Source of the DNA: Gluconobacter vitians
GTDB taxonomy: Bacteria; Pseudomonadota; Alphaproteobacteria; Acetobacterales; Acetobacteraceae
Direction: 5' to 3'
NCBI RefSeq assembly: GCF_015244565.1
Contig: NZ_JABCQG010000009.1
Span: 62,001-126,000, forward strand
Length of the DNA stretch: 64,000 nt
Position numbers and translations under genes: made by a program. Of the stretch, positions 15,763 through 54,369 are shown in pieces (within the stretch, counting starts at the first letter, position 1; each line of letters opens with the position of its first letter). Below the pieces are notes generated by a model. That model did no database searches, had not been told where the DNA came from, and was given only the letters and a program-made list of their open reading frames with translations.

Positions 15763-17045
15763 GCAGCCGCATCCGGCTGGTTATCGGCCGTGAAGACCTC
15801 CACACCGCGTTTGAACGTGCGCAGGACACGGCCTTTCAGGTTCCGTCCATCAAAAGGCGTGTTCTGCGCCCGACCCGGAAGTTCCCCGGCTATGACGGTC
15901 CATGATTTGTCCGGATCGAACAGGCAGAGATCGGCATCGCTTCCGACTGCCAGCGTTCCGGCCTCAAGACCGAGCAGGGCTGCCGGAGCGGACGTCACCA
16001 GTCGCAACGCATCAACCAGTGGCAGCCCGGCGCCGAGCGTGACGCCCATCAGCGTGACCAGCCCCGTTCCACCGGCCCGCGCCTGTGCAAACGGCAGCCG
16101 CTTGTCGTCGGCGTCCGCCGGGGCATGATCGGAGGCTACGGCATCAATCGTCCCATCCGCCAGCGCAGCACAGACGGCCTTACGGTCCGCTTCGTTGCGC
16201 AGGGGAGGCGACAGTTTCGCATAAGTGCGGAAATCGCCGATATCGTCTTCCGTCATCGCGAAATAGGGTGGTGCTGTATCGCAGGTCACACGAATGCCGC
16301 GGCTTTTGGCCTCGCGGATCAGATCCAGTCCCTCCGCCGTCGAGACATGGGCAAAATGCAGGCGCGCACCCGTCATGTCCGCCAGACGCAGGTCGCGTGC
16401 GATCATGATGGCCTCGGCTGCTGCCGGAACCTGGGGCAGCCCCATCCGCACGGCGCGCGCGCCAGCCGTGGCACAGGCGCCCTTGGCCAGCGACGGCTCT
16501 TCCGGATGCTGAACGACGATGGCGTCAAGAAAACGCGAATAGGACAGCAGATTACGCATCTGCTTGGCATCAGCGATGGCCCGCGTTCCATCAGTAAACG
16601 CGACCGCTCCGGCGTCCCGCAGCAACCCGAGTTCGGCCATCTCGCCGCCCTCACAGCCGCGCGTCAGCGCACCGTAAGGATGGATCGAGACCATACCCGT
16701 CTCTTCGCCCCGAACGCGCAGCAGATGAACCAGCGCCGGATTGTCGATCGGTGGTGACGTATTGGGCAGAACCGCCATCGTCGTGATGCCGCCCGCTACG
16801 GCCGCTCGCGCGCCAGAGGAGACGCTCTCACGGTATTCCGAGCCCGGCTCCCCGAGCGCCACGCGCATGTCCACCAGTCCCGGACACAGGACTGCGCCCG
16901 CGCCATCGATGACCCGCGCTCCTTCGGGGACCGATCCATCTTCGCAGGCGACGATCTTCCCCTGACGCACCACAAGTCGTCCGGTCTCATCGCGACCCGA
17001 GGCCGGGTCGATCAGGCGGACATTTTCAAAAACGATATTACTCAT
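15759..17045 (-). CDS. pyrC: Dihydroorotase-like protein lacking the HxH metal site (PyrC-like/PyrX)
   Basis: A 428-residue amidohydrolase-fold protein of the class I dihydroorotase family. In active enzymes the stretch DxHxHxREPG supplies two metal-binding histidines and a substrate-binding arginine. Here it reads [10 protein letters not shown], so these positions are Arg61, Ala63 and Gly65. Later landmarks persist: [22 protein letters not shown] and [16 protein letters not shown]. This is the pattern of PyrC-like chains that form a structural complex with aspartate transcarbamoylase, as reported in Pseudomonas. If so, the active dihydroorotase is encoded elsewhere. Its ATG overlaps the pyrB stop by four bases, which fits a complex with PyrB. 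Confidence 0.85.
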
Positions 17046-43370: not shown

Positions 43371-43553
43371 ATGACGACAGACCCCCATGACAGTGAAATC
43401 ACGGTGCTCGCCGCTGCGAACGGCCTGACCATCCCGTCCGAGTTCCATGCCGGGGTACGGTCCAATCTTGAACTCCTGCGCAGCTATGGCGCGCTGATCG
43501 AAGGGCTGGAACTTCCGGACCGCCTCGAACCCGCTTTCCGGTACGAACCATGA
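43371..43553 (+). CDS. AtzG/HpxX-like small amidase partner
   Basis: A 60-residue peptide starting at ATG 43371 with GGAG 5 bases upstream. The stretch DSEITVLAAANGLTIPSEFHAGVRSNLELLRSYGALIEGLEL resembles AtzG and HpxX (DUF4089), small GatC-like chains that wrap around an AtzE-type amidase and stabilise it. Its stop overlaps the amidase start (ATGA), as expected for co-translated partners. It is too short to be certain by itself. The neighbour makes the call firm. Confidence 0.82.
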   Translation: MTTDPHDSEITVLAAANGLTIPSEFHAGVRSNLELLRSYGALIEGLELPDRLEPAFRYEP

Positions 43554-44884
43554 GCGGCCTTGAACAGCGCACGGTTGCGCTTGCCGCCAGCGTCCGCAAG
43601 GGCGAGCGCTCCGCACGCGATCTGGCCGTGAAGGCTCTGGCCGATATCGAAAGCCGGGACGGAAGCTATCACTGTGTCACGCGCCTGCTGATGCAGCGTG
43701 CTCTTGAAGCCGCCGAGAGGGTGGACCGTCTTGTGCTGCAGGGACGCGATCCCGGACCGCTTGCCGGTGTGCCGTTTGGCATCAAGGATCTGTTCGATGT
43801 CCGCGGCGAAGTCACGACCGCAGGCTCGAAAGTCCTCGCCAACGATCCGCCTGCCACGCAGGATGCCGTTGTGGTTGCGCACATGATTGCGGCCGGGGCC
43901 ATTCCCATCGCCCTGACGAACATGGACGAATTCGCTTACGGGTTCGCCACGATCAATGCCCATTACGGCAACACCCGTAATCCGCATGCTCCCGAGCGTC
44001 TGGCCGGCGGATCGTCAGGCGGTTCGGCAGCGGGTGTGGCTGCTCGGATGTTTTCGGTAGGTCTTGGCTCCGATACGAACGGCTCCATCCGTGTTCCGGC
44101 ATCGCTCTGTGGGGTGTGGGGTCTGCGGGCAACGCAGGGGCGGTTGTCCGTGGAGGGCAGCTACCCGTTCGTGCCGAGCCTCGATACGGTCGGCCCGTTC
44201 GCCGACAGTGCGGGCGGACTGAAAGCCTGTTTTGAAGCGCTCTGCGCCAGACCGTTGGCGGAAGTCGATGTCAGCAGCCTGCGCATTTCCCGGCTTGGCG
44301 GTTGGTTTGGCGAAAACATGTCGGCGCCGATGCAGACTGCGATCGATACGCTGTCCATGGCGCTGGGCGCTACGGATGTCGTGGAGATCCCCGAAGTGGC
44401 ACGTGCACGGGCTGCGGCGTTTGTCATTAGTGCTTCCGAAGGGGCGGGGCAGCATCTCGGACGTCTGCGCACCCAGGCTGCAGACTATGATCCTGCTGTC
44501 CGTGATCGGCTGCTGGCCGGGGCTCTTCTGCCGTCCACACTGATCTTTCAGGCCCATCGCCTACGGCACTGGTTCCGTGACCGGATGCATGAGGCATTTG
44601 CGAAGACGGACATTCTGCTGGCCCCTGCGCTGGTCGGCGAAGCTCCGCGTTTCGATCAGCCGGAAATCGAAATCGGCGGCAAGATGGTCTCTGCCCGCGC
44701 AAATCTGGGTCTTTACACGCAGCCGCTGACGCTGGCGGGTTTCCCGGTCCTGACGGTGCCGATGAAGGTGCCAGGACTGCCGCTCGGTGCGCAATTGATT
44801 GCGCGTCCGGGCCGCGAGGACCAGCTCTTTGCTTTGGCTGAAAAGCTGGAAACGGACGGACTGGCGGAAGCCCGTCTGATCTGA
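43550..44884 (+). CDS. Amidase signature enzyme, AtzE/HpxY-like
   Basis: A 444-residue amidase. The Lys-cisSer-Ser triad is intact: Lys79 in FGIKDLFDV, Ser155 in GGSSGGSAAG and Ser179 in GSDTNGSIRVPA. The spacing 79/155/179 equals that of AtzE, the 1-carboxybiuret hydrolase of cyanuric acid breakdown, and the upstream gene is AtzG-like. Klebsiella HpxY is the same type and sits in the urate/allantoin region. In this island the likely substrate is a ureido acid such as oxalurate, which resembles 1-carboxybiuret in carrying a terminal ureido amide. That is an inference. It converges on the symporter gene with no bases between the two stop codons. Confidence 0.85.
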   Translation: MSGLEQRTVALAASVRKGERSARDLAVKALADIESRDGSYHCVTRLLMQRALEAAERVDRLVLQGRDPGPLAGVPFGIKDLFDVRGEVTTAGSKVLANDPPATQDAVVVAHMIAAGAIPIALTNMDEFAYGFATINAHYGNTRNPHAPERLAGGSSGGSAAGVAARMFSVGLGSDTNGSIRVPASLCGVWGLRATQGRLSVEGSYPFVPSLDTVGPFADSAGGLKACFEALCARPLAEVDVSSLRISRLGGWFGENMSAPMQTAIDTLSMALGATDVVEIPEVARARAAAFVISASEGAGQHLGRLRTQAADYDPAVRDRLLAGALLPSTLIFQAHRLRHWFRDRMHEAFAKTDILLAPALVGEAPRFDQPEIEIGGKMVSARANLGLYTQPLTLAGFPVLTVPMKVPGLPLGAQLIARPGREDQLFALAEKLETDGLAEARLI

Positions 44885-46144
44885 TTAACGTCCCAGTGCC
44901 TCGGCCATCTTTGCGTGGTCGAGGCGCTTTTCCCGGGCTGCGATCAGAACCGGGGCGACGCAGTTTCCTGCGAAATTGCCCACGGCCCGCGCGATCCCTG
45001 CAAACCAGTCCACTGCCAACAGCATCACCAGACTTGCGGGCGGGATGGATGGCACGCTTGCCAGTGTTGCCGCCAGAATGACGATCGCAAAACCCGGAAT
45101 GCCGTGCGCGCCTTTGGAGGTGATCAGCGCTGTCACCAGCAGGGTTGCGATCTGCCAGACCGGCAGATGCGTTCCGGTAGCGTTGGCCAGAAAGATGACC
45201 GCCAGTCCCAGATAGATCGACAGTGCATCCAGATTGAGCGAATACCCGGCCGGCACCACGATCCCTACGACCTGACGCTCCACTCCGAGTTTTTCGAGCT
45301 TGGTCATCAGGCTGGGCAGAACCGCGTCCGATGCCGTGGTTGTGGCGACGATCAGCAGTTCTTCGCGGAAATAACGTGCAAACCGCAGTGGACTGACGCC
45401 CGCAAGCCGTAGCCCACCGCCCAGCGCGCCAATGATAAAGAGACCCACCAGCAGGAAATACAGTGCTGTGAACCCGGCCAGATGCCCGATCGTCTCCAGT
45501 CCGTAACGCGCCGTTGTTGTTACCATCGCGCCGAACACGCCCAGAGGAGCCACGCGGATGATGATACCCATCATGCGCGAAAACAGTTCGGAGATGCTTT
45601 CGATCAGCCGGACCAGAGGTGTGCTGCGTTCTCCCATGCCGCTCAGGCAGCATCCGGCAAAAATCGCGAAGACCAGGATTTGGAGGACGTTCCCCTGTGC
45701 GAAGGCTTCCGCTGGGGTGCGCGGCACGAGTGAGAGCAGGAATCCGCTGATGCCGCCCGCCCGCAGGCTCTGCGCATGGCCGCCATAGGACGCGATCATC
45801 TGCATATCTTCGACGCTCGGCACGAACCCGACGCCCCGACCGATTCCGAGCCCCATCGCCACCAGAACTGCTACGCCGAGCGCGAGTGTTGTCATGATCT
45901 CGAAATAGAGCAGGGCCTGTCCCCCCAGTCGCCCGACCGTTTTCAGCGATCCGGCCCCAAGAATCCCAAGTGTTACGATACAGAACAGCAGCGGCCCGAC
46001 CGCCATGATGATGAGGCGCATGAACAGCGCCGTCATCCATCCCACATCATCTGCGAGGCCTGGGAAAAACAGTCCGGCGCCAAGCCCGAGTACCGTTGCC
46101 AGAACGACCTGCGCGAACAGATTTCCGGCCAGAGTTCTCACCAC
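44885..46144 (-). CDS. Dicarboxylate/amino acid:cation symporter (DctA/GltP family)
   Basis: A 419-residue DAACS transporter with about eight membrane helices and two re-entrant loops. Landmarks are TTTASDAVLPSLMTKLEKLGV (re-entrant loop 1 region), VPAGYSLNLDALSIYLGLAVIFLA (the NxDG-like sodium and substrate site) and SKGAHGIPGFAIVILAATL. The start is one of two GTG codons; the first is taken. It overlaps the 3' end of the HpxW-like gene, so the two should be co-transcribed. Context suggests import of an anionic substrate of this pathway, such as allantoate, oxamate or a dicarboxylate. The substrate is not proven. Confidence 0.9.
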   Translation of the reverse strand: MVRTLAGNLFAQVVLATVLGLGAGLFFPGLADDVGWMTALFMRLIIMAVGPLLFCIVTLGILGAGSLKTVGRLGGQALLYFEIMTTLALGVAVLVAMGLGIGRGVGFVPSVEDMQMIASYGGHAQSLRAGGISGFLLSLVPRTPAEAFAQGNVLQILVFAIFAGCCLSGMGERSTPLVRLIESISELFSRMMGIIIRVAPLGVFGAMVTTTARYGLETIGHLAGFTALYFLLVGLFIIGALGGGLRLAGVSPLRFARYFREELLIVATTTASDAVLPSLMTKLEKLGVERQVVGIVVPAGYSLNLDALSIYLGLAVIFLANATGTHLPVWQIATLLVTALITSKGAHGIPGFAIVILAATLASVPSIPPASLVMLLAVDWFAGIARAVGNFAGNCVAPVLIAAREKRLDHAKMAEALGR

Positions 46145-47730
46145 GCGGCAACGGCTCCGTCACTGCGTGGATCAGTGGCGCCTTCGAGACGTCCGTTTTC
46201 GTGGCGGATCAGCGCGCCGGCGTGACCCATGATGATGGACTGTTCGGGGAGTGCTTCAACCGTATGCCCGGCCGCTTCAAGCTGCGACATGACATTCGGA
46301 CTGAATCCCGGTTCCACCTTGAGCGACAGGCTCTCGTCTCCCCAGGTGCGCCCGAGCAGCCAGCGAGGACGGCAGATTGCTTCCTGAAGCGGTACCCCAT
46401 AGCGGACGTGACGGCTGAAGATCGCGGCCTGTGTCTGGGGCTGGCCTTCGCCGCCCATGGTGCCATAGACCATTGTGCGCCCGTCCCGCAGGCGTGCGGC
46501 AGCCGGGTTGAGCGTATGAAACGGCTTGGCTCCGGGGCGCAGAATGTTCCAGCCCGAATGGGCCAGCCGGAAGGACGATCCCCGGTTCTGCCAGAACAGT
46601 CCGCTCTGCGGCAGCATCACGCCGGAGCCGAATTCGAAATACAGGCTCTGGATCATGCTGACCGCAACGCCATCGCGGTCGATCGCCCCCATCCATGTCG
46701 TGTCGCCCCACTGCGTCTGCTCCGTCCAGGGCAGGGCATGGGTCATGGAAATGCGGGACGCCATCGCTTCCAGCCGTGCCGGATCGGCCAGCAAAGCCCG
46801 GGCCCGGGATTCCGAATGTTCGCTGCCATCCGTATAGCGGTTGCGGTAGAGGAACGCCTGTTTGGTGGCTTCGACCAGACCATGCACATGCGCAAAGCTC
46901 TCCGGCCCGTCCGCACGGCTCAGATGATCCGACAGGGCCAGGATCAGAAGCGAGGCCACGCCCTGTGTGGGCGGGGCGGTATTATAAAGGAAGCCATCGC
47001 TGGTCTGCACATGCAGCGGTTCCTTGACCTCTGCCCGATGCGCCAGAAGATCCAGTGACCGGACCGGACTGCCAGCCGCTGCCAGATCGGCGGCCAGACT
47101 GCGCGCCAGCGGCCCATTATAGAAACTGCGCAGTCCGTCCCGGTTCAGCATTCTCAGTGTCTGCGCCAGTTCGGGCGATTTGCGGATACTGCCCGCTGTC
47201 CAAGGTTTGCCTTCTGGAAAACAGATGCGCGCCAGTGTCGGATCCGACATGAGTTCCGGTTGCTTCTGGGCCAGAAGGGCCGCCTCGCTCTCTGAGACCA
47301 CACGCCCATTCTCAGCATAAAAGATGGCGTCCCGCAGAAGCCGGTCCAGCGGGAGGGGCTCGCGGATATCGCTGCTCAGTTCCAGCGCCTTCTCCCAGCC
47401 CGAGACCGTCCCGGCCACCGTATTGGCCGCAAGCCCGCCACGCCAGGGAATGACGTTGTGCCCGGCCTCGGCATACACCGCATGATCCGCGCCCATGGCC
47501 AGCGCCCCGCAGGCGTCAATGGCCACAGTCCGTCCATCAGGATAGCAGATCAGCCAGAACGCATCCCCGCCCAGTCCCGTCATGTGCGGATAGACGACTG
47601 CCAGCGTGGAGGCCGTGGCCACGATCGCTTCAATCGCCGTTCCGCCCTCGCGCAGGACATCCAGCCCCGCCTGACTGGCCAGATGATGCGGAGACGTTAC
47701 CATTCCGCCGAGAGCATTGGGTGTCAGCAT
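46138..47730 (-). CDS. Gamma-glutamyltransferase-fold hydrolase, HpxW-like (oxamate amidohydrolase)
   Basis: A 530-residue N-terminal nucleophile hydrolase. It has no signal peptide, unlike most GGT enzymes, so it is probably cytoplasmic. The self-cleavage and catalytic threonine should be Thr344 in QWGDTTWMGAIDRDG, where true GGTs have TTH. It also has LREGGTAIEAIVATA at the start, HMTGLGGDAFWL, and SLYFEFGSGVMLPQSGLFWQNRG, with TMGGEGQPQTQAAI later. Klebsiella HpxW, a GGT-fold protein, hydrolyses oxamate to oxalate and ammonia in urate breakdown. The adjacent AtzG/AtzE-like genes parallel hpxWXY. Plain GGT activity on glutathione remains an alternative. Confidence 0.8.
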   Translation of the reverse strand: MLTPNALGGMVTSPHHLASQAGLDVLREGGTAIEAIVATASTLAVVYPHMTGLGGDAFWLICYPDGRTVAIDACGALAMGADHAVYAEAGHNVIPWRGGLAANTVAGTVSGWEKALELSSDIREPLPLDRLLRDAIFYAENGRVVSESEAALLAQKQPELMSDPTLARICFPEGKPWTAGSIRKSPELAQTLRMLNRDGLRSFYNGPLARSLAADLAAAGSPVRSLDLLAHRAEVKEPLHVQTSDGFLYNTAPPTQGVASLLILALSDHLSRADGPESFAHVHGLVEATKQAFLYRNRYTDGSEHSESRARALLADPARLEAMASRISMTHALPWTEQTQWGDTTWMGAIDRDGVAVSMIQSLYFEFGSGVMLPQSGLFWQNRGSSFRLAHSGWNILRPGAKPFHTLNPAAARLRDGRTMVYGTMGGEGQPQTQAAIFSRHVRYGVPLQEAICRPRWLLGRTWGDESLSLKVEPGFSPNVMSQLEAAGHTVEALPEQSIIMGHAGALIRHENGRLEGATDPRSDGAVAAW

Positions 47731-47740
47731 GGCGGCGTCC

Positions 47741-48625
47741 TCAAAGGGGCATGAGATCGGGTTGCAGGCGTGGAATATGAGCGCAGAGCGTCCGGATCAG
47801 CAGTTCTTCCGGCCCCTGCGCCACCTGATGGCGGGTGGACGCAATGAACTCGACCTGTGGCATTTCCGGCAGCAGTCCCGACGCACAATGCGACAGATGC
47901 TCCACGTTGCGCAGGAAAGCCGGCTGCGGGGTTACACCATATCCGGCGCGCACAGCCGCCAGAAGCGCGCCGAGACTGCCGCTGGTAAAGGCCAGATGCC
48001 AGGCGCGCCCGGCCTTGTTGAGCGTTTCGATCGCCAGCCGCCGTGTGACGCTGCCATCGGGGAATGTCACGAGCGGAATGGACTGCTCGGCCGGAAACTC
48101 TGTTCCCGCAGGCGCATACCAGCGCATGTCCTCGGTCCACAGCTTCTGTCCGCGTGTCTCCGTCGTGCGCCGCATCCCGCACCAGACGTCCAGTTCTCCC
48201 TGTTCCAGAAGCTGCGCCAGATAGGCCGATAGCCCGACTGTCATGGTGATCTGAAGCGAGGGATGAGACGCGCGGAATGTTCCGAGGATTTCGGGAAACC
48301 GCGTCAGAAGCAGATCTTCCGTTACTCCCAGACGGATCGTCCCCCTTGGAGCCTCCTGCCGGAAACGGGACAGGATACTGTCCTCACACTGAAGAAGCTG
48401 CCGTGCCAGACCAATCAGTGCCATGCCGTCTTCCGTCAGCCGCACACTCTTGGTGCTCCGGGCCAGAAGGCGCGTTCCAAGCTGTTCCTCCAGCCGGCTG
48501 ACATGCTGGCTGATCGTGGACTGGCTTACTCCCTGACTCTGCGCGGCCGACGTGAAATGCAGCGTTTCCGCGACCGCGAGAAAGGATTGCAGATGGAACG
48601 GGTCGAGATGCATCTGATCTTTCAT
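47741..48625 (-). CDS. LysR family transcriptional regulator
   Basis: A 294-residue regulator starting at ATG 48625 (48613 and 48712 are alternatives). The helix-turn-helix reads LQSFLAVAETLHFTSAAQSQ, then STISQHVSRLEEQLGTRLLAR. The effector-binding domain begins at about residue 90. It is 10 bases upstream of the HpxW-like gene on the same strand and divergent from the allantoate amidohydrolase-like gene. It probably senses a pathway intermediate and controls both directions from the shared region at 48626-48729. Confidence 0.88.
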   Translation of the reverse strand: MKDQMHLDPFHLQSFLAVAETLHFTSAAQSQGVSQSTISQHVSRLEEQLGTRLLARSTKSVRLTEDGMALIGLARQLLQCEDSILSRFRQEAPRGTIRLGVTEDLLLTRFPEILGTFRASHPSLQITMTVGLSAYLAQLLEQGELDVWCGMRRTTETRGQKLWTEDMRWYAPAGTEFPAEQSIPLVTFPDGSVTRRLAIETLNKAGRAWHLAFTSGSLGALLAAVRAGYGVTPQPAFLRNVEHLSHCASGLLPEMPQVEFIASTRHQVAQGPEELLIRTLCAHIPRLQPDLMPL

Positions 48626-48729
48626 CCCGATATGTGGGACCATATTTATTGGCAGGTCAACTTGATCTGACTCCGTTATGAGAGCACAGTTCCACTCGTC
48701 TTGACACATCATCCCTAACAGGAGCCCCC
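48626..48729. promoter_or_regulatory. Divergent promoter region of the nitrogen-salvage island
   Basis: A 104-base gap between the LysR gene and the M20 hydrolase gene. A dyad GTCA-N8-TGAC lies at 48656-48671 and could be a LysR-type operator. The plus-strand gene has AGGAG just before its ATG. A TTGACA at 48694-48699 is present but lies too close to the start codon for a normal -10. Confidence 0.4.
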
Positions 48730-49965
48730 ATGACAGCCCACGGAGCCCGCGCCGTCGAGCGGTGCCGTATTCTCGCGGATGTCCCTTTCAGCGAGACACC
48801 GGGCAGTCTGTTCCGCTTCTGGCTCGGTCCTGCCTATCAGCGCACACTCACGCAGGTTGCGCAGTGGATGGAGGAGGCCGGTCTGACCACCCGTCTGGAT
48901 GCGGCCGGGAGCCTGATCGGTCGTTATGAGGGCCTGACGCCCGGCGCTCCGGCGCTGATGATCGGCTCCCATCTCGATACGGTTCGTAATGGCGGGGCCT
49001 TTGACGGCAATCTCGGTGTCATGCTGGGGATCGAACTGGTCTCCGCCCTGAATGAAGAGGGCACGCGCCTGCCATTCGCCATTGAAGTCATGGGCTTCGG
49101 AGACGAGGAAGGTTCGCGCTTTGCGGCTCCCATGATCTGCTCCCGTGCCATGGCCGGGCTGATTGAGTCCGTTCCTGAAGGCATGACGGATGCGTCCGGT
49201 GTGACCGTGGCGGAAGCCATGATCCGTTACGGCCTCGATCCCGCCGGTCTGAGCGAAGCCGCCCGTCGCCCGGATGAACTGATCGCCTATATCGAACCCC
49301 ATATCGAACAGGGCCCGGCCATCGAAAGCGCGGATGGTGAGATCGGCGTCGTGACTGCCATCGCCGCCCAGACCCGTCAGCGCGTGACCGTTACCGGCCA
49401 GTCCGACCATGCGGGCACGACGCCCATGACCATGCGTCAGGATGCCCTGACGGCGGCTGCTGAAATGATTCTTGCGGTCGAACGCAATGGTGCGTCAGGG
49501 GGTGCCACGCAGGTCGCTACGGTGGGCCAGATCGACGTGACGCCAAACACATCGAATGTCATTCCCGGCGAAGTCCGCTTCTCGCTCGACATGCGGGCCG
49601 AAACCAACGAAGCCCGTGATGCCATGGCCGATGCGATCCGCACGGATTTGCGTGCCATCGCTGACCGGCGCGGTCTGGGCATTGCGTTCGATACCCCGCA
49701 ATACCTGCCTGCCGCCGCCTGTGCGCCCGCACTGGTGGACGGTCTGGCGCGGGCCGTCACAAGCGTCACCGGTCGCCCGGCCCAGCGTCTTTTGAGCGGT
49801 GCGGGGCATGACGCCATGGCCATGGTCGATCTGTGTCCGATGGGGATGCTGTTCATCCGCAGCCCCGGCGGCCTGAGCCATCATCCCGATGAAACCGTCC
49901 GCGTGGGAGATGTCGATCTCGCCCATCGCGCGCTGCTTGCCTTCGTCAAGGAGTTCCAGTCATGA
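48730..49965 (+). CDS. M20-family amidohydrolase, allantoate amidohydrolase-like (AllC/HpxK type)
   Basis: A 411-residue zinc/manganese amidase of the hydantoinase/carbamoylase group. Metal ligands are visible in order: GSHLDTVRNGG (His), AFDGNLGVMLG (Asp), GDEEGSRF (Glu), EPHIEQGP (His) and GGLSHHPDETV (His). The dimerisation domain carries GQSDHAGTTPMTMRQDAL. The family includes allantoate amidohydrolase, ureidoglycolate hydrolase and N-carbamoyl-L-amino acid hydrolases. Because a ureidoglycine aminotransferase overlaps its stop codon (ATGA), allantoate to ureidoglycine, ammonia and CO2 is the best reading. Substrate is inferred from context. Confidence 0.87.
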   Translation: MTAHGARAVERCRILADVPFSETPGSLFRFWLGPAYQRTLTQVAQWMEEAGLTTRLDAAGSLIGRYEGLTPGAPALMIGSHLDTVRNGGAFDGNLGVMLGIELVSALNEEGTRLPFAIEVMGFGDEEGSRFAAPMICSRAMAGLIESVPEGMTDASGVTVAEAMIRYGLDPAGLSEAARRPDELIAYIEPHIEQGPAIESADGEIGVVTAIAAQTRQRVTVTGQSDHAGTTPMTMRQDALTAAAEMILAVERNGASGGATQVATVGQIDVTPNTSNVIPGEVRFSLDMRAETNEARDAMADAIRTDLRAIADRRGLGIAFDTPQYLPAAACAPALVDGLARAVTSVTGRPAQRLLSGAGHDAMAMVDLCPMGMLFIRSPGGLSHHPDETVRVGDVDLAHRALLAFVKEFQS

Positions 49966-51194
49966 CCCATCCCGCAACTTTCGCCCAGCTTGATCCGCCG
50001 TCCCGTCTGCTGATGGGTGCGGGACCGACGAACGTCCATCCGCGTATCCTCCGCGCCATGTCCTATGACGTGATCGGCCAGATGGACCCGGAAATGACCG
50101 CCTATATGGACGAGGTCATGGCCCTGTATCGTGAGGTCTTCCGCACGAAGAACCACTGGACGCTGCTGGTGAACGGTTCCGCCCGCTCGGCCATTGAGGC
50201 CGCGCTGGTTTCGCTGGTTTCGCCGGGCATAAAGGTCGTCATTCCGCGCTTTGGCCGCTTCGGTCTGCTGCTGACGGAAATCGTTCATCGCTGTGGCGGC
50301 GTGCCCTGCACGGTGGATGTGGAATGGGGGCAGGTCGTCGATCCGGCCGCCATTGAAGCTGCTATTATCGAGCATAAGCCCGGTCTGGTCGCCTGTGTTC
50401 ATGGTGATACCTCCACCACGACCGCTCAGCCGCTCGAAGAGATTGGCCGCATCTGTCGCAAACATGATGTGCTGTTTTATGTGGACGCCACGGCCACGCT
50501 CGGCGGCATGACGTTCGAGACCGACGCCTGGAACATCGACGTTGCCACGGCCGGTCTGCAGAAATGCCTGAACGGCCCTCCGGGCTCGGCACCCATCACA
50601 CTGTCCGAACGCGCCGTTGCCGCTATCCTCAAGCGCCGCCATGACGAAGCTGGCATTGCCACCGGCCAGCCGCAGGGTGATGGTCCGGTTATCCAGTCGA
50701 ACTATTTCGATCTGGCGATGCTGATGAACTACTGGTCCCCGGCGCGGATGAACCATCATACCGAAGCCACGTCCATGCTGTACGCCGCCCGTGAAACAGC
50801 GCGCCTGGTCGTGGAAGAGGGTGTGGAGGCCCGGGTTGCCCGTCATGTACGGGCAGGGCGCGCCATGGTCGCCGGGCTGCGCGCCATGGGCCTGAAGGTT
50901 TATGGGGACGATGCCACGCGCATGAGCAATGTCACGGGCGTCTGGGTGCCGGAAGGTGTGGACAATACCCGCATTCGTCAGCTTATGCGTGATGATTTCG
51001 GGATCGAGATCGTCTCGTCCTTTGGTCCGCTGACCGGAAAGATCTGGCGTATTGGGGCAATGGGCATCAATGCCCGCAAGGACAAGGTCCTGCTCACGCT
51101 TGCGGCCTTCGATTCCGTGCTGGCCGGCGAGGGTGTAAAACTCAACCGCGGCTCAGGCGTGGATGCAGCCCGCGCCGCCTGGGACGCTGCCTGA
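49962..51194 (+). CDS. Pyridoxal-phosphate aminotransferase, ureidoglycine:glyoxylate type (PucG/HpxJ-like)
   Basis: A 410-residue class V aminotransferase. The PLP lysine is in ATAGLQKCLNGPPG, preceded by FYVDATATLGGM with the ring-contacting Asp. VIGQMDPEMTAYMDEV near residue 40 has Gln where alanine:glyoxylate and serine:glyoxylate enzymes usually have His or Leu. A Gln here is characteristic of ureidoglycine:glyoxylate aminotransferases. The reaction is ureidoglycine plus glyoxylate giving oxalurate plus glycine. It is coupled to the upstream hydrolase through ATGA. An alternative is a serine/alanine:glyoxylate aminotransferase. Confidence 0.83.
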   Translation: MTHPATFAQLDPPSRLLMGAGPTNVHPRILRAMSYDVIGQMDPEMTAYMDEVMALYREVFRTKNHWTLLVNGSARSAIEAALVSLVSPGIKVVIPRFGRFGLLLTEIVHRCGGVPCTVDVEWGQVVDPAAIEAAIIEHKPGLVACVHGDTSTTTAQPLEEIGRICRKHDVLFYVDATATLGGMTFETDAWNIDVATAGLQKCLNGPPGSAPITLSERAVAAILKRRHDEAGIATGQPQGDGPVIQSNYFDLAMLMNYWSPARMNHHTEATSMLYAARETARLVVEEGVEARVARHVRAGRAMVAGLRAMGLKVYGDDATRMSNVTGVWVPEGVDNTRIRQLMRDDFGIEIVSSFGPLTGKIWRIGAMGINARKDKVLLTLAAFDSVLAGEGVKLNRGSGVDAARAAWDAA

Positions 51195-51215
51195 TCGGTC
51201 TTCGGACCGGAAGTT

Positions 51216-51404
51216 CTATTCCTTCGGATGGTTCTTCCGGCCCGATCCGCTTTTCTTTCCGCCACCGTCTTCCTTGTTGACGGTGGCCCAGGCTCGGCGC
51301 TCGGCTTCCTTGTCGGAGACGCCACGCTTTTCGTAGCCTTCCTCGATATGCTCTGCCTGACGTTTCTGCTTGTCCGTATAGGCTGACTTGTCTCCACGAG
51401 GCAT
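51216..51404 (-). CDS. Small basic/charged protein, 'plasmid stabilisation'-type family
   Basis: A 62-residue hydrophilic protein on the strand opposite its neighbours. It reads SAYTDKQKRQAEHIEEGYEK, then GVSDKEAERRAWATVNKEDGGG and a KKSGSGR tail. This is a widespread small family often labelled plasmid stabilisation protein; its role is unknown, and stress protection or nucleic acid binding is a guess. It is inserted between the aminotransferase and the glyoxylate reductase genes and probably is not part of the pathway. Confidence 0.75.
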   Translation of the reverse strand: MPRGDKSAYTDKQKRQAEHIEEGYEKRGVSDKEAERRAWATVNKEDGGGKKSGSGRKNHPKE

Positions 51405-51560
51405 GATCCTGCCCTCCTGTATGAGATCCAGCCTCCTCTACGCCCGAACCCGGCGCGCGTTCCCGGTAGTCGGCCATACACAAACAGGTGTGCGGGGTTG
51501 ATCCGAACTCCCCGTGGCGCGAGCATTCCCGCACATCTTTCCGGCTGGAGAACACGCAGA

Positions 51561-52487
51561 ATGTCGATCGTCTTCCATCACACGCCCGAACGCGCGAAGG
51601 TCTGGGGCGAGAAGTTCGCGAAGGCTCGGCCTGACATGCCGTTTTATGTCTGGCCCGAAACCGGCCCGAAAGAGGATGTCCGCTATCTCGCGGCCTGGAA
51701 GACACCGGACGACCTCGCCACGCTTTTTCCCAATCTTGAAGTTCTGTTCTCGCTGGGCGCAGGGATCGATCAGCTCAATCTCGCCAATGTGCCTCCGGGC
51801 GTAAAGATCATCCGGATGGTGGAGAGCAGTCTGGTGGAGGGCATGATTGAATATGTCCTGTGGGCGGTTCTGTCCTTTCACCGGGACATGTTCCGCTATG
51901 CCCGCCAGCAGCGCGAACATGTCTGGGATGGTTCGCATAACCGCCCGGCGAAGCTCTACCGTGTTGGCCTCATGGGTATGGGAGAACTGGGCAGTCCGGT
52001 TCTGGAGAAGCTCGTTTCCTTCGGATACGAGTGCCGGGGCTGGAGCCGCAGTCGCCGCGAGGTTCCGGGCGTAAAGTCCTTTGCCGGGGCAGGGGAGCTG
52101 GATGCGTTTCTGGCGGAAACCGACATTCTGGTCTGTCTCGTTCCGCTGACGGACGCTACGCGCGGCATCCTCAATCGCAGCCTGTTTGAAAAGCTGCCGA
52201 AAGGGGCCTGCCTCATCAACTGTGGCCGTGGTGGCCATCTGGTGCAGGACGATCTGATTCCCGCTCTCGACAACGGCCAGCTCTCACAGGCCGTGCTCGA
52301 CGTTGCCACACCCGAACCATTACCGCCCGAACATCCGTTCTGGGATCATCCGCGCATTTTCCTGACCCCGCATATCGCCAGCGCCGCCCAGTCGGACACT
52401 GCAGCCGAGGCCGTTCTGGCCAATCTGCGGCGCTACGAAGCCGGTGAACTCATGACCGGCGTCATTGATACCGGACGCGGCTATTGA
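51561..52487 (+). CDS. ghrA: 2-hydroxyacid dehydrogenase, glyoxylate/hydroxypyruvate reductase A-like
   Basis: A 308-residue D-2-hydroxyacid dehydrogenase of the GhrA branch. ATG 51561 is chosen. The nucleotide-binding loop reads VGLMGMGELGSPVLEKL. Catalytic residues are the Arg in LINCGRGGHLV, the Glu in DVATPEPLPPEHPFW and the His in LTPHIASAAQ. GhrA reduces glyoxylate to glycolate and hydroxypyruvate to glycerate with NADPH. In this island it would remove excess glyoxylate or balance the aminotransferase. It is the last gene before tRNA-Thr. Confidence 0.85.
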   Translation: MSIVFHHTPERAKVWGEKFAKARPDMPFYVWPETGPKEDVRYLAAWKTPDDLATLFPNLEVLFSLGAGIDQLNLANVPPGVKIIRMVESSLVEGMIEYVLWAVLSFHRDMFRYARQQREHVWDGSHNRPAKLYRVGLMGMGELGSPVLEKLVSFGYECRGWSRSRREVPGVKSFAGAGELDAFLAETDILVCLVPLTDATRGILNRSLFEKLPKGACLINCGRGGHLVQDDLIPALDNGQLSQAVLDVATPEPLPPEHPFWDHPRIFLTPHIASAAQSDTAAEAVLANLRRYEAGELMTGVIDTGRGY

Positions 52488-52566
52488 GGTCTCGAAGCGG
52501 TTTTTGCATTTTCCGGCTTGCCAACCCCCAAGGGCTCGGTTAGAACGCGCCCACCTTGATGGGTGC

Positions 52567-52642
52567 GCCGGTGTAGCTCAGCTGGTAGAGCACGTCATTC
52601 GTAATGATGGGGTCGGGAGTTCGAATCTCTTCACCGGCACCA
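52567..52642 (+). tRNA. tRNA-Thr (CGT)
   Basis: A 76-base cloverleaf with acceptor GCCGGTG/CACCGGC, anticodon loop TTCGTAA (anticodon CGT), T-loop TTCGAAT and encoded ACCA end. It follows ghrA by 79 bases. Confidence 0.95.
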
Positions 52643-52668
52643 TCAAGGTCTTCCGAAAATCCGGATCT

Positions 52669-52704
52669 GTTATGGTTGTGTCCACTATACTGGACACAGA
52701 TAAC
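52669..52704 (+). terminator. Hairpin downstream of tRNA-Thr
   Basis: GTTAT/ATAAC and TGTGTCCA/TGGACACA form an interrupted 13-bp stem around a CTATAC loop, followed by a pyrimidine-rich stretch (GGTCTTTCTCTCC). It probably ends the tRNA transcript, although the tail is weak. A protein-binding dyad is an alternative. The rest of 52705-52884 holds nothing I can support. Confidence 0.45.
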
Positions 52705-52884
52705 GGTCTTTCTCTCCAGGATCCGGATCTTCACAATTTTTCAAAATATTGCGGATACAACCGGCTTCCTCTGGGCAATCCGCCTGTGATGGGACTACGA
52801 TGGATGTCGATATCCCGATGCAGAGGGCTGCCCGACAAGGGCGGACTGTCAAAAGACGGCTCCCTGCGTTAGGTTAGGAGCCCG

Positions 52885-54369
52885 ATGTCTGACCGTTTCC
52901 ATAAACGACTGTGGCGCAACGCCGTCAGCTTTTCCCGCAGTCAGGAGCCTCATGCTTCCATCCATGCGGTGGAAGGCCTGCGCGAATGCCCGACCTGCGG
53001 CCTTTTCCAGCACGTCCCGCGCCTGAAACCCGGACATCTCGCTGAATGCCTGCGCTGCGGCTGCCAGCTGGCCCGCCGCCGCAGGACGTCCCTGATCGGC
53101 GCTCCGGCGGCTTTCTGCATCACATCGGCTGCGCTCTACATCACGCTTCTCATCAGCTCCCTCATGACGCTGAACGTCTACGGGCGTGAAAACACCGTCT
53201 CACTGATGAGCGGTCCGATCGAACTCGGACATCAGGGCTATGGCGCAATCGGGGTTCTCGTCGCACTGGTGACGATCCTCATGCCGGGCGTCATTATTGG
53301 TCTGATGGGCGCCATTCTCTATGGCGCTTCCCGCCCGCACATGCCCGACTGGACCCCGCGACTGCTCACCTGGTACGACCGCCTGCGCGGCTGGTCGATG
53401 GTGGAAGTCTACGTCCTCGGCGTGCTTGTGGCCTACACCAAACTCGTGGATCTCGCTCTCGTCATCCTTCAGCCCGGCGTCTATCTTCTGGGCGGCCTGA
53501 TGCTGAGCATGGCCGCCGTGGACTCGACCTTCGATGCCGAGCGGATCTGGCGCAGCCGCGACATCAGCCCCACGCTGGATGATCACCAGGGCCATCTGCT
53601 GGATGTCGCCCATCTCGATGCCCGTAACGGTGTCATCCCGCCTGTAGAACACATGCTCTCCTGCCATGCCTGCAATCTGGTGCTGGCTTTCGACCATGCC
53701 GTGCCGCAGGAAGAGGACATGGGAGACTGTCCCCGCTGTGGCCAGATCCTGCGCCGGCGCAAACCCCAGAGCCTCTCTTCGGCCACCTGCCTTCTCGTGG
53801 CCGGTGTCGTGTTCTATCTGCCGGCCAATCTGCTGCCGGTCATGACCTACACCAAGGTCGGGCATGGCGCGCCCAGCACCATTACCAGTGGTGTGATCGA
53901 GCTGTGGCAGGCCGGGATGATCCCGCTGTCCCTGCTGGTGCTCTTTGCCAGTATCACTGTCCCGGTGCTCAAGATCATCGCCCTGACAATCATGATCATC
54001 TGTACCCGGCTCAGATCCAGCTGGCAGCTGCGGCATCTGGCGAAGCTCTATCGCCTTGTCGTCATCATCGGTCGCTGGTCCATGATCGACGTTTTCATGA
54101 TTTCCATCCTCGTTGCCGTCGTGCATTTCGGTTTTCTGGCCAATGTCACGGCCGATCCGGGGATGGTCTGCTTTGCGCTGGTGGTGATCCTGACCATTTT
54201 CGCCGCAGAGCTGTTTGATCCCCGCGGAATGTGGGATGCCGCCGGCCTGAATGGTGCGGTCGCCAGTCCCGCGACGGGCAACCGGGAGCCGGAGACACCG
54301 TCTTCGGACGCTCCCGTTCCCCATCTGCCTTCTTCTGACCCTACTGACATGGAGCCTGGACGCGCGTGA
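52885..54369 (+). CDS. pqiA: Paraquat-inducible protein A-like membrane protein
   Basis: A 494-residue membrane protein in two PqiA repeats. Each repeat starts with a zinc ribbon: CPTCGLFQHV with CLRCGCQLARRR (about residues 33-62), and SCHACNLVL with CPRCGQILRRRK (about 260-295). Four membrane helices follow each ribbon. AGGAG lies before the ATG. In E. coli, PqiA with PqiB and PqiC forms a trans-envelope lipid transport system involved in membrane homeostasis. Its stop overlaps the start of the next gene, giving coupled pqiA-pqiB. Confidence 0.9.
   Translation: MSDRFHKRLWRNAVSFSRSQEPHASIHAVEGLRECPTCGLFQHVPRLKPGHLAECLRCGCQLARRRRTSLIGAPAAFCITSAALYITLLISSLMTLNVYGRENTVSLMSGPIELGHQGYGAIGVLVALVTILMPGVIIGLMGAILYGASRPHMPDWTPRLLTWYDRLRGWSMVEVYVLGVLVAYTKLVDLALVILQPGVYLLGGLMLSMAAVDSTFDAERIWRSRDISPTLDDHQGHLLDVAHLDARNGVIPPVEHMLSCHACNLVLAFDHAVPQEEDMGDCPRCGQILRRRKPQSLSSATCLLVAGVVFYLPANLLPVMTYTKVGHGAPSTITSGVIELWQAGMIPLSLLVLFASITVPVLKIIALTIMIICTRLRSSWQLRHLAKLYRLVVIIGRWSMIDVFMISILVAVVHFGFLANVTADPGMVCFALVVILTIFAAELFDPRGMWDAAGLNGAVASPATGNREPETPSSDAPVPHLPSSDPTDMEPGRA

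Follow-up and report, generated by a model that had tools for sequence, protein, structure and literature searches.

The hpx pathway of Klebsiella leads from allantoate to oxalate by means of an allantoate amidohydrolase, the aminotransferase HpxJ, the HpxXYZ proteins and HpxW, the last being an oxamate amidohydrolase according to a passage of PMC5270733 (citing Hicks and Ealick 2016). A study of 2013 (excerpt of PMC3560190) covered the genomic contexts of hpxW, with their hpxWXYZ structures, in 22 alpha- and gammaproteobacteria, and Klebsiella pneumoniae is described as devoid of allFGH in a passage of PMC11326118. Two functions are given for hpxY in the accessible portion of PMC12625717, oxalurate amidohydrolase in one place (citing Huynh and Stewart 2023) and oxamate carbamoyltransferase in a figure legend, and NCBI names both HpxX and HpxZ "oxalurate catabolism protein". 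In the cyanuric acid pathway, AtzE is reported to deaminate 1-carboxybiuret to 1,3-dicarboxyurea, releasing ammonia, and AtzH to be a likely decarboxylase of the matching product (sections of PMC6219798). In this work, we analyzed positions 43,371 to 52,487 of a 64,000-nucleotide stretch of Gluconobacter vitians (contig NZ_JABCQG010000009.1, positions 62,001 to 126,000; hereafter the window), which encode an AtzG/AtzE-like pair, a DctA-like carrier, an HpxW-type hydrolase, a LysR-type regulator, an M20 hydrolase and an HpxJ/PucG-type aminotransferase.

We propose that these genes form the lower half of a complete HPX-kind urate-to-oxalate nitrogen pathway distributed among three loci of the Gluconobacter genome, a reading to which we assign a probability of about 0.78. 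The upper half, on contig C8, would comprise an HpyO-like urate hydroxylase, UraH, UraD and PuuE, and would yield allantoate. The M20 enzyme would convert allantoate to ureidoglycine; the aminotransferase would form glycine and oxalurate by passing the amino group of ureidoglycine to glyoxylate; AtzGE (HpxXY) would take the terminal ammonia off oxalurate, leaving N-carboxyoxamate; this would lose CO2 to give oxamate, perhaps helped by HpxZ, encoded on contig C16; and HpxW would turn oxamate into oxalate and ammonia. The proposal is built on gene content, neighbourhoods and conserved residues, from which each reaction in this organism, and above all the substrate of AtzGE, is predicted.

Predicted identities of the window enzymes

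Ten proteins, spanning positions 43371 to 54369, were scanned with Pfam and NCBIfam models. The aminotransferase matched best 3nnk (489 bits), named ureidoglycine-glyoxylate aminotransferase in the match table and presumably Klebsiella HpxJ, followed by PucG (3isl, 406 bits), AGT-type chains reaching at most 260 bits; the serine:glyoxylate-type relative that an earlier, sequence-only reading of this DNA had raised as the alternative is thus not the closest one. The PucG-type Gln pointed out in that reading is Gln40, which together with Asn264 is common to the window protein, 3nnk and 3isl, whereas the three aligned AGT/HKT chains (1vjo, 2ch1 and 2huf) carry His, Asn or His at the first position and Tyr at the second. 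Gln and Asn at these positions set the specificity of such enzymes. By sequence, the protein is a predicted ureidoglycine:glyoxylate aminotransferase of the HpxJ/PucG type, and its counterparts in Gluconobacter sphaericus, G. aidae and G. albidus show 95-97% identity to it.

The protein with a gamma-glutamyltransferase (GGT) fold gave its best matches to the two chains of 5hft (275 and 262 bits), an entry whose name in the match table is gamma-glutamyltranspeptidase only and which we take to be HpxW. Next came 2i3o and 2nlz (198 and 197 bits), and the best other chain named gamma-glutamyltranspeptidase was 2e0w (162 bits), so that a true GGT is not the nearest relative either. Thr344 lies at the subunit junction, aligned to residue 1 of chain B, where the small subunit begins with its nucleophilic Thr. 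The N-terminus, MLTPNALGGMVTSPHH, shows no signal peptide by eye, as had been read at first. Three other GGT-family matches exist in the same genome, the two listed being 32% and 30% identical.

As for the M20 hydrolase, it exceeds the cut-off of the curated model NF006775 (Table 1) and attains 229.6 of the 597.75 bits required by the AllC model TIGR03176; a role as allantoate amidohydrolase is suggested by that one model and by the neighbourhood. The amidase matched best 6c62 (359 bits), named biuret hydrolase, which we assume to be AtzE, and its small partner matched the Pfam AtzG-like family, with no NCBIfam match at 0.001, the HpxX model NF033624 included.

The upper half of the proposed pathway in the same genome

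The 3.16-Mb assembly comprises 93 contigs, and the window belongs to the one designated C9. On C8, a gene for the allantoinase PuuE (C8:65050-65940; TIGR03212, 538 bits, cut-off 424.6) is accompanied by genes for UraD, UraH, an NCS2 xanthine-permease-type carrier and a guanine deaminase, each above its cut-off, and adjoins the gene of a 485-residue FAD/NAD(P)-binding, HpyO-like flavoprotein. HpxZ (AtzH) is encoded alone and unlinked on C16 (NF033625, 156.5 bits, cut-off 135). In the sequence-only reading, neither urate oxidase nor allantoinase had been seen in the window, which the position of the PuuE and HpyO-like genes on C8 does not contradict, and a search of the genome for allantoinase, as it suggested, found PuuE. 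Altogether that reading is partly supported: the enzyme families, the direction from allantoate through ureidoglycine, oxalurate and oxamate to oxalate, and nitrogen release as the purpose are upheld, but the idea of a shortened pathway beginning at allantoate is wrong in view of PuuE, UraD, UraH and the flavoprotein on C8 and of HpxZ on C16.

The classical allantoinase was rejected as a candidate, as the five matches to TIGR03178 in this genome stay below the cut-off, which is reached in none of 37 genomes. The three strongest of them are dihydroorotases by better models, one lying in the window (15777-17024). Two more PRK09060-type dihydroorotase genes lie on contigs C1 (around 287859) and C27 (around 5553; loci L050 and L051), the C27 copy near a polysaccharide-deacetylase-family gene that is weakly PuuE-like (58 bits).

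No classical uricase (PF01014) was found in the 37 genomes searched, which include all 23 members of our genus set (this genome, G000, among them), and no PuuD (PF06181) in the 23 genus members; for this reason, the HpyO-like gene was taken up as the candidate for the urate step. HpyO is a flavoprotein urate hydroxylase of Xanthomonas (part of PMC4562309). In the Xanthomonas loci, a protein 43-45% identical to the Gluconobacter flavoprotein is encoded between UraD and UraH, downstream of the aminotransferase and PuuE; the named loci of Acetobacter, Gluconacetobacter, Novacetimonas and Komagataeibacter show identities of 65-72%. With reserve, we consider the Gluconobacter protein a putative HpyO-type urate hydroxylase. 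At the other end of the pathway, no oxalyl-CoA decarboxylase above cut-off was found in the 23 genus members, a search that did not extend to other oxalate routes, and oxalate is therefore probably the end product.

Gene neighbourhoods and co-occurrence

HpxW, PuuE, the HpyO-like gene and HpxZ are each present in 22 of the 23 genus members, and G004 is without all four. PuuE directly adjoins HpxW in G001, G008, G011 and G022. Nine loci of related genera have the order HpyO-like, AtzE, HpxW, M20, aminotransferase, PuuE, UraD, UraH (Komagataeibacter L139, L140, L141 and L143; Gluconacetobacter L130 and L150; Novacetimonas L133; Acetobacter L132 and L136). Since the upper half is present in the same genome and some related genera have single clusters, we read the window cluster as the lower half of a single pathway, divided among loci in this lineage.

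Among aminotransferase loci with organism names, the best 80 of at least 589 were taken, a choice that leans to close relatives, and 58 of at least 19 kb were kept, 22 shorter ones being dropped. A gene was scored as present when its best tblastn piece spanned at least half of the query and reached 35% identity, or 40% in the case of guanine deaminase. Near the aminotransferase we found M20 in 49 loci, AtzE and PuuE in 42 each, UraD in 41, HpxW in 35, UraH in 33, the HpyO-like gene and HpxZ in 28 each, guanine deaminase in 16, and AtzG, which is short and easily missed, in 15. HpxW and AtzE occurred together in 34 loci, AtzE without HpxW in 8, HpxW without AtzE in 1 and neither in 15, so that 34 of the 35 HpxW loci also hold AtzE.

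Some individual genes are damaged. HpxW of G011 (L030; G011:C1:2127171-2128753) is broken into two pieces in different frames, one with a stop, in a genome that still has the aminotransferase, M20, AtzE, PuuE and HpxZ, and the HpyO-like frame of G016 contains a TGA.

Several observations weigh against the urate-to-oxalate reading: (i) among solved structures, the M20 enzyme is nearest to an N-carbamoyl-L-amino acid hydrolase (295 bits), with 184 bits for the best chain that bears the name allantoate amidohydrolase, and hence the identity given by the sequence-only reading stands as regards one curated model but not as regards the nearest structure; (ii) 16 of the 58 loci have no AtzE nearby, 8 of the 42 AtzE loci have no HpxW, and in 8 of the 58 the aminotransferase has none of M20, AtzE and HpxW near it; (iii) paralogous flavoproteins of the genus, encoded away from urate genes in G005, G009, G010, G013, G019 and G020, are 41-46% identical to the HpyO-like protein, compared with 43-45% for the Xanthomonas homologue, and because paralogues match equally well, the putative HpyO assignment rests on synteny; (iv) a uricase gene is reported in Gluconobacter in a passage of PMC8358223, whereas none of the 23 genus members gave a PF01014 match; and (v) the motif GGTCAACTTGATCTG of the LysR/M20 promoter region, described below, is not found, even when 3 mismatches are allowed, in L049 or L225, which were fetched from C8 and C16.

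It is unlikely that the cluster is instead a stand-alone island, as first read from the sequence, which would import allantoate through the DctA-like carrier and degrade it to oxalate independently of urate. The nearest approach to such a cluster is found on the Zymomonas mobilis plasmid pZM33 (L233, 2663-11160), where genes for LysR, a porin, DctA, M20, the aminotransferase, AtzH, AtzG and AtzE follow one another; the annotation of the 17 kb shown lists neither PuuE nor any urate gene, nor an HpxW-like one. DctA-like genes occur in the flanks of 6 of the 80 named loci. The Gluconobacter genome, however, has the upper pathway half, G004 is without HpxW and HpxZ as well as PuuE and the HpyO-like gene, and both halves adjoin in some related genera. 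The carrier itself, which reaches 456 of the 570 and 409 of the 513 bits demanded by the two DctA models, is an optional member of the gene set.

The oxalurate step

The aminotransferase was searched for at E 1e-90 in 398 genomes sampled across the phylum, and stretches of up to 20 kb around it were inspected. The 25 genomes that have it, this one included, carry M20 near it in 24 cases, HpxW in 20 and an amidase in 23. By chance, about 0.40 genomes would be expected to have an amidase within 10 kb, given that the 25 hold 76 amidases (E 1e-20) in some 104 Mb, genome sizes being rounded. The alternative oxamate carbamoyltransferase includes the subunit AllG, which occurs anywhere in the genome in 5 of the 25. 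One of these, G250, has a weaker AllG match (108 bits, compared with at least 300 in the other four) and no amidase near its aminotransferase; the other four hold both AllG and the amidase. No AllG (PF06545) was found in G000, where the sequence-only reading had recommended looking for an AllFGH-type enzyme, nor in G001 and G005, the two further genus members searched. That reading had listed an oxalurate carbamoyltransferase as absent from the window; with an amidase in 23 of 25 genomes against AllG in 5, there appears to be no need for one.

The 24 loci from other genomes comprise 12 with an AtzE-type amidase, 10 with an amidase of another clade and 2 (L096 and L109) with none. HpxZ accompanies all 12 AtzE-type amidases, and HpxX was detectable in 11 of these loci. 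In the ten others (L097, L098, L105 and L111-L117), an amidase of about 400 residues takes the place of AtzE; the two that were scanned (L097 and L111) exceed the cut-off of NF006169/PRK08310, neither HpxX nor HpxZ was found in the fetched stretches of the ten loci, and three of the ten amidases lie on long branches according to a warning of the tree tool. Both patterns fit an amidase that would act on the product of the aminotransferase before HpxW.

Oxalurate and 1-carboxybiuret are alike in ending in a ureido group on one side and in a carboxylate on the other. Judging from homology and gene context, AtzGE (HpxXY) most likely deaminates oxalurate, giving oxamate and CO2, and HpxW would then make oxalate. 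No assay of HpxXY or of oxalurate hydrolysis was found in the literature searched, which left out most subscription papers. AtzGE might also split oxalurate into oxalate and urea, rather than oxamate and ammonia, the urea going to urease or being excreted. We consider this improbable: oxamate need not be the product in the 8 of 42 AtzE loci that have no HpxW nearby, but the presence of AtzE in 34 of the 35 HpxW loci is hard to explain without oxamate, and AtzE is reported to release ammonia from 1-carboxybiuret (PMC6219798, same sections). Very unlikely is, finally, another ureido substrate (N-carbamoyl amino acids, biuret or creatinine derivatives) handled together with an alanine:glyoxylate-type aminotransferase, which would suit the best structural match of the M20 enzyme and the AtzE relatives that elsewhere lie beside ring-opening amidohydrolases, but which is contradicted by the score gap and the Gln40/Asn264 pair of the aminotransferase, by the neighbouring PuuE (42 of the 58 named loci) and UraD (41 of them), and by the lack of any AtzD- or AtzF-like protein among the ten scanned.

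Relation to AtzE of cyanuric acid degradation

The amidase tree held 91 rows, that is, the window and 126 loci tried, minus 36 without a usable open reading frame of 370 residues; three rows were taken as GatA from their Pfam scores, and the label "urate-linked" was given to every row outside the other lists, including a Serratia symbiotica plasmid gene with an aminotransferase about 41 kb away. The AtzE of pADP-1, that of a Pseudomonas putida plasmid, which adjoins a ring-opening amidohydrolase, and one Paraburkholderia sequence grouped with 13 HpxY rows, Klebsiella and Serratia among them (support 100/99 for the group of 16 rows and 90/11 for the three-row group within it). A third sequence from an AtzD-like context (L236) was placed elsewhere in the tree, whose root is not fixed, as the long GatA branch attaches inside, with a long-branch warning. 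L236, from an Acidithiobacillus caldus plasmid (1259-8897), brings together genes for ureidoglycolate lyase, ring-opening amidohydrolase, XdhC, an AtzG-like protein, AtzE, HpxZ, a gamma-glutamyltransferase-family protein and LysR, a mix of urate-like and cyanurate-like genes.

At 25 positions, residues conserved in at least 95% of 78 AtzE-type rows differ from the commonest residue of the three GatA rows, and at three of them (Arg287, Gln391 and Asp105) the residue is also outside the two commonest ones of the PRK08310-type rows. It is tempting to speculate that these three residues could serve the shared carboxylate. Tentatively, and as a joint claim with odds clearly below even, (i) the oxalurate step would be hydrolytic and would have been filled at least twice, by the HpxXYZ/AtzGEH trio and, in other Gammaproteobacteria-like genomes, by a single-chain PRK08310-type amidase with no HpxX or HpxZ in its vicinity, and (ii) AtzGEH of cyanuric acid degradation would have been recruited from a urate enzyme with a chemically close substrate, not from GatCA directly. 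The amidase pattern would in that case suggest a source for a herbicide-degradation enzyme.

Organization of the locus and its regulation

All genes listed by the sequence-only reading were found where it had placed them, mostly under the right names (Table 1). By layout they fall into three units, of which atzG-atzE and M20-aminotransferase are on the plus strand and lysR-hpxW-dctA is on the minus strand. Neighbouring frames overlap by 4 bp (atzG/atzE), 7 bp (hpxW/dctA) and 4 bp (M20/aminotransferase), and the amidase pair does converge on the carrier gene, the ends of AtzE and DctA abutting with zero spacer.

Table 1. Features of the segment, with positions in the window.
Feature	Position	Strand	Basis
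AtzG/HpxX-like small subunit, 60 aa	43371..43553	+	PF13318, 31 bits (cut-off 24)
AtzE/HpxY-type amidase, proposed oxalurate amidohydrolase	43550..44884	+	TIGR02715, 535 bits (cut-off 426); NF006631, 596 (461)
DctA-family (SDF) carrier	44885..46144	-	PF00375
HpxW-type oxamate amidohydrolase (predicted), GGT fold	46138..47730	-	best PDB match 5hft (both chains); Thr344
LysR-type regulator	47741..48712	-	PF00126 and PF03466
Invariant motif of the divergent LysR/M20 promoter region, likely operator of LysR	48655..48669		9/9 Gluconobacter sequences
M20 hydrolase, allantoate amidohydrolase type	48730..49965	+	NF006775, 599.7 bits (cut-off 479)
(S)-ureidoglycine:glyoxylate aminotransferase, HpxJ/PucG type (predicted)	49962..51194	+	3nnk, 489 bits; Gln40 and Asn264
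GhrA-like 2-hydroxyacid dehydrogenase, probably outside the pathway	51561..52487	+	PF02826

The promoter region that two divergent units had been said to share is supported by the 15 bases of GGTCAACTTGATCTG, which are invariant in all nine aligned Gluconobacter sequences, some from near-identical strains, and contain the palindrome TCAAcTTGA. The window has a single exact match and four matches within 3 mismatches, compared with 1.43 expected. The LysR start at 48712 leaves 17 bp to the M20 start; perhaps the true start is at MKDQ, 29 codons later, which would leave about 105 bp and put the motif between the genes. A LysR motif shared across the three loci was rejected, and since the stretches of C8 and C16 hold no match, LysR probably acts on the local units and not, through this motif, on the other two loci.

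The GhrA-like reductase, listed as part of the island by the sequence-only reading, scores 222.5 of the 403 bits required by the GhrA model NF012013 and is not conserved with the cluster: in six named Gluconobacter and Neokomagataea loci, its gene is near the aminotransferase in two, about 5 kb off in a third and not found in three. Between the aminotransferase and this gene lies a lysine-rich open reading frame of 62 codons on the minus strand (51216-51404; MPRGDKSAYTDKQKRQAEHIEEGY...), 90-98% identical in three further loci of the genus (L060, L061 and L065) and without a Pfam or NCBIfam match at 0.001.

Comparison with known systems

A gene group that looks truncated in one window is here read as half of a complete pathway, and numbers now stand behind the oxalurate amidohydrolase role that database names and printed accounts already assume. 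The pathway also bears on nitrogen recycling in fruit flies, given that Gluconobacter occurs in these insects, whose main nitrogen waste is urate (passage of PMC8358223); PMC7520893, which in its accessible part concerns host allantoin in flies, was set aside. Both hpxWXYZ operons and Gluconobacter urate genes are already in print; the less expected results are the second amidase subfamily and the grouping of AtzE with enterobacterial HpxY.

Compared with Klebsiella, which has the same enzyme set, HpxZ is unlinked in Gluconobacter, the urate step is apparently of the HpyO type, gene order and strands differ, and a LysR-type regulator and a DctA-like carrier stand in place of the RpiR-type HpxU and an amino-acid ABC transporter. 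In the K. pneumoniae record the aminotransferase, HpxX, the AtzE family protein and HpxZ are annotated, and the M20 and HpxW matches fall in unannotated gaps, the latter divided into two pieces that lie in different frames. Other Acetobacteraceae, sphingomonads and Xanthomonas have the same genes, many of their loci including HpyO-like, PuuE, UraD and UraH genes, and several of these loci are one cluster, whereas this Gluconobacter has three loci. The atzDGEHF genes of Pseudomonas sp. ADP share the AtzG-AtzE pair (AtzE identity 43.7%), and the Gluconobacter genome also has a homologue of HpxZ/AtzH; in contrast, the ten scanned proteins include no counterpart of AtzD or AtzF, and the genome has two PF01425 amidases only, AtzE and one taken for GatA. 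Lastly, the aminotransferase is farther from PucG of Bacillus subtilis than from 3nnk.

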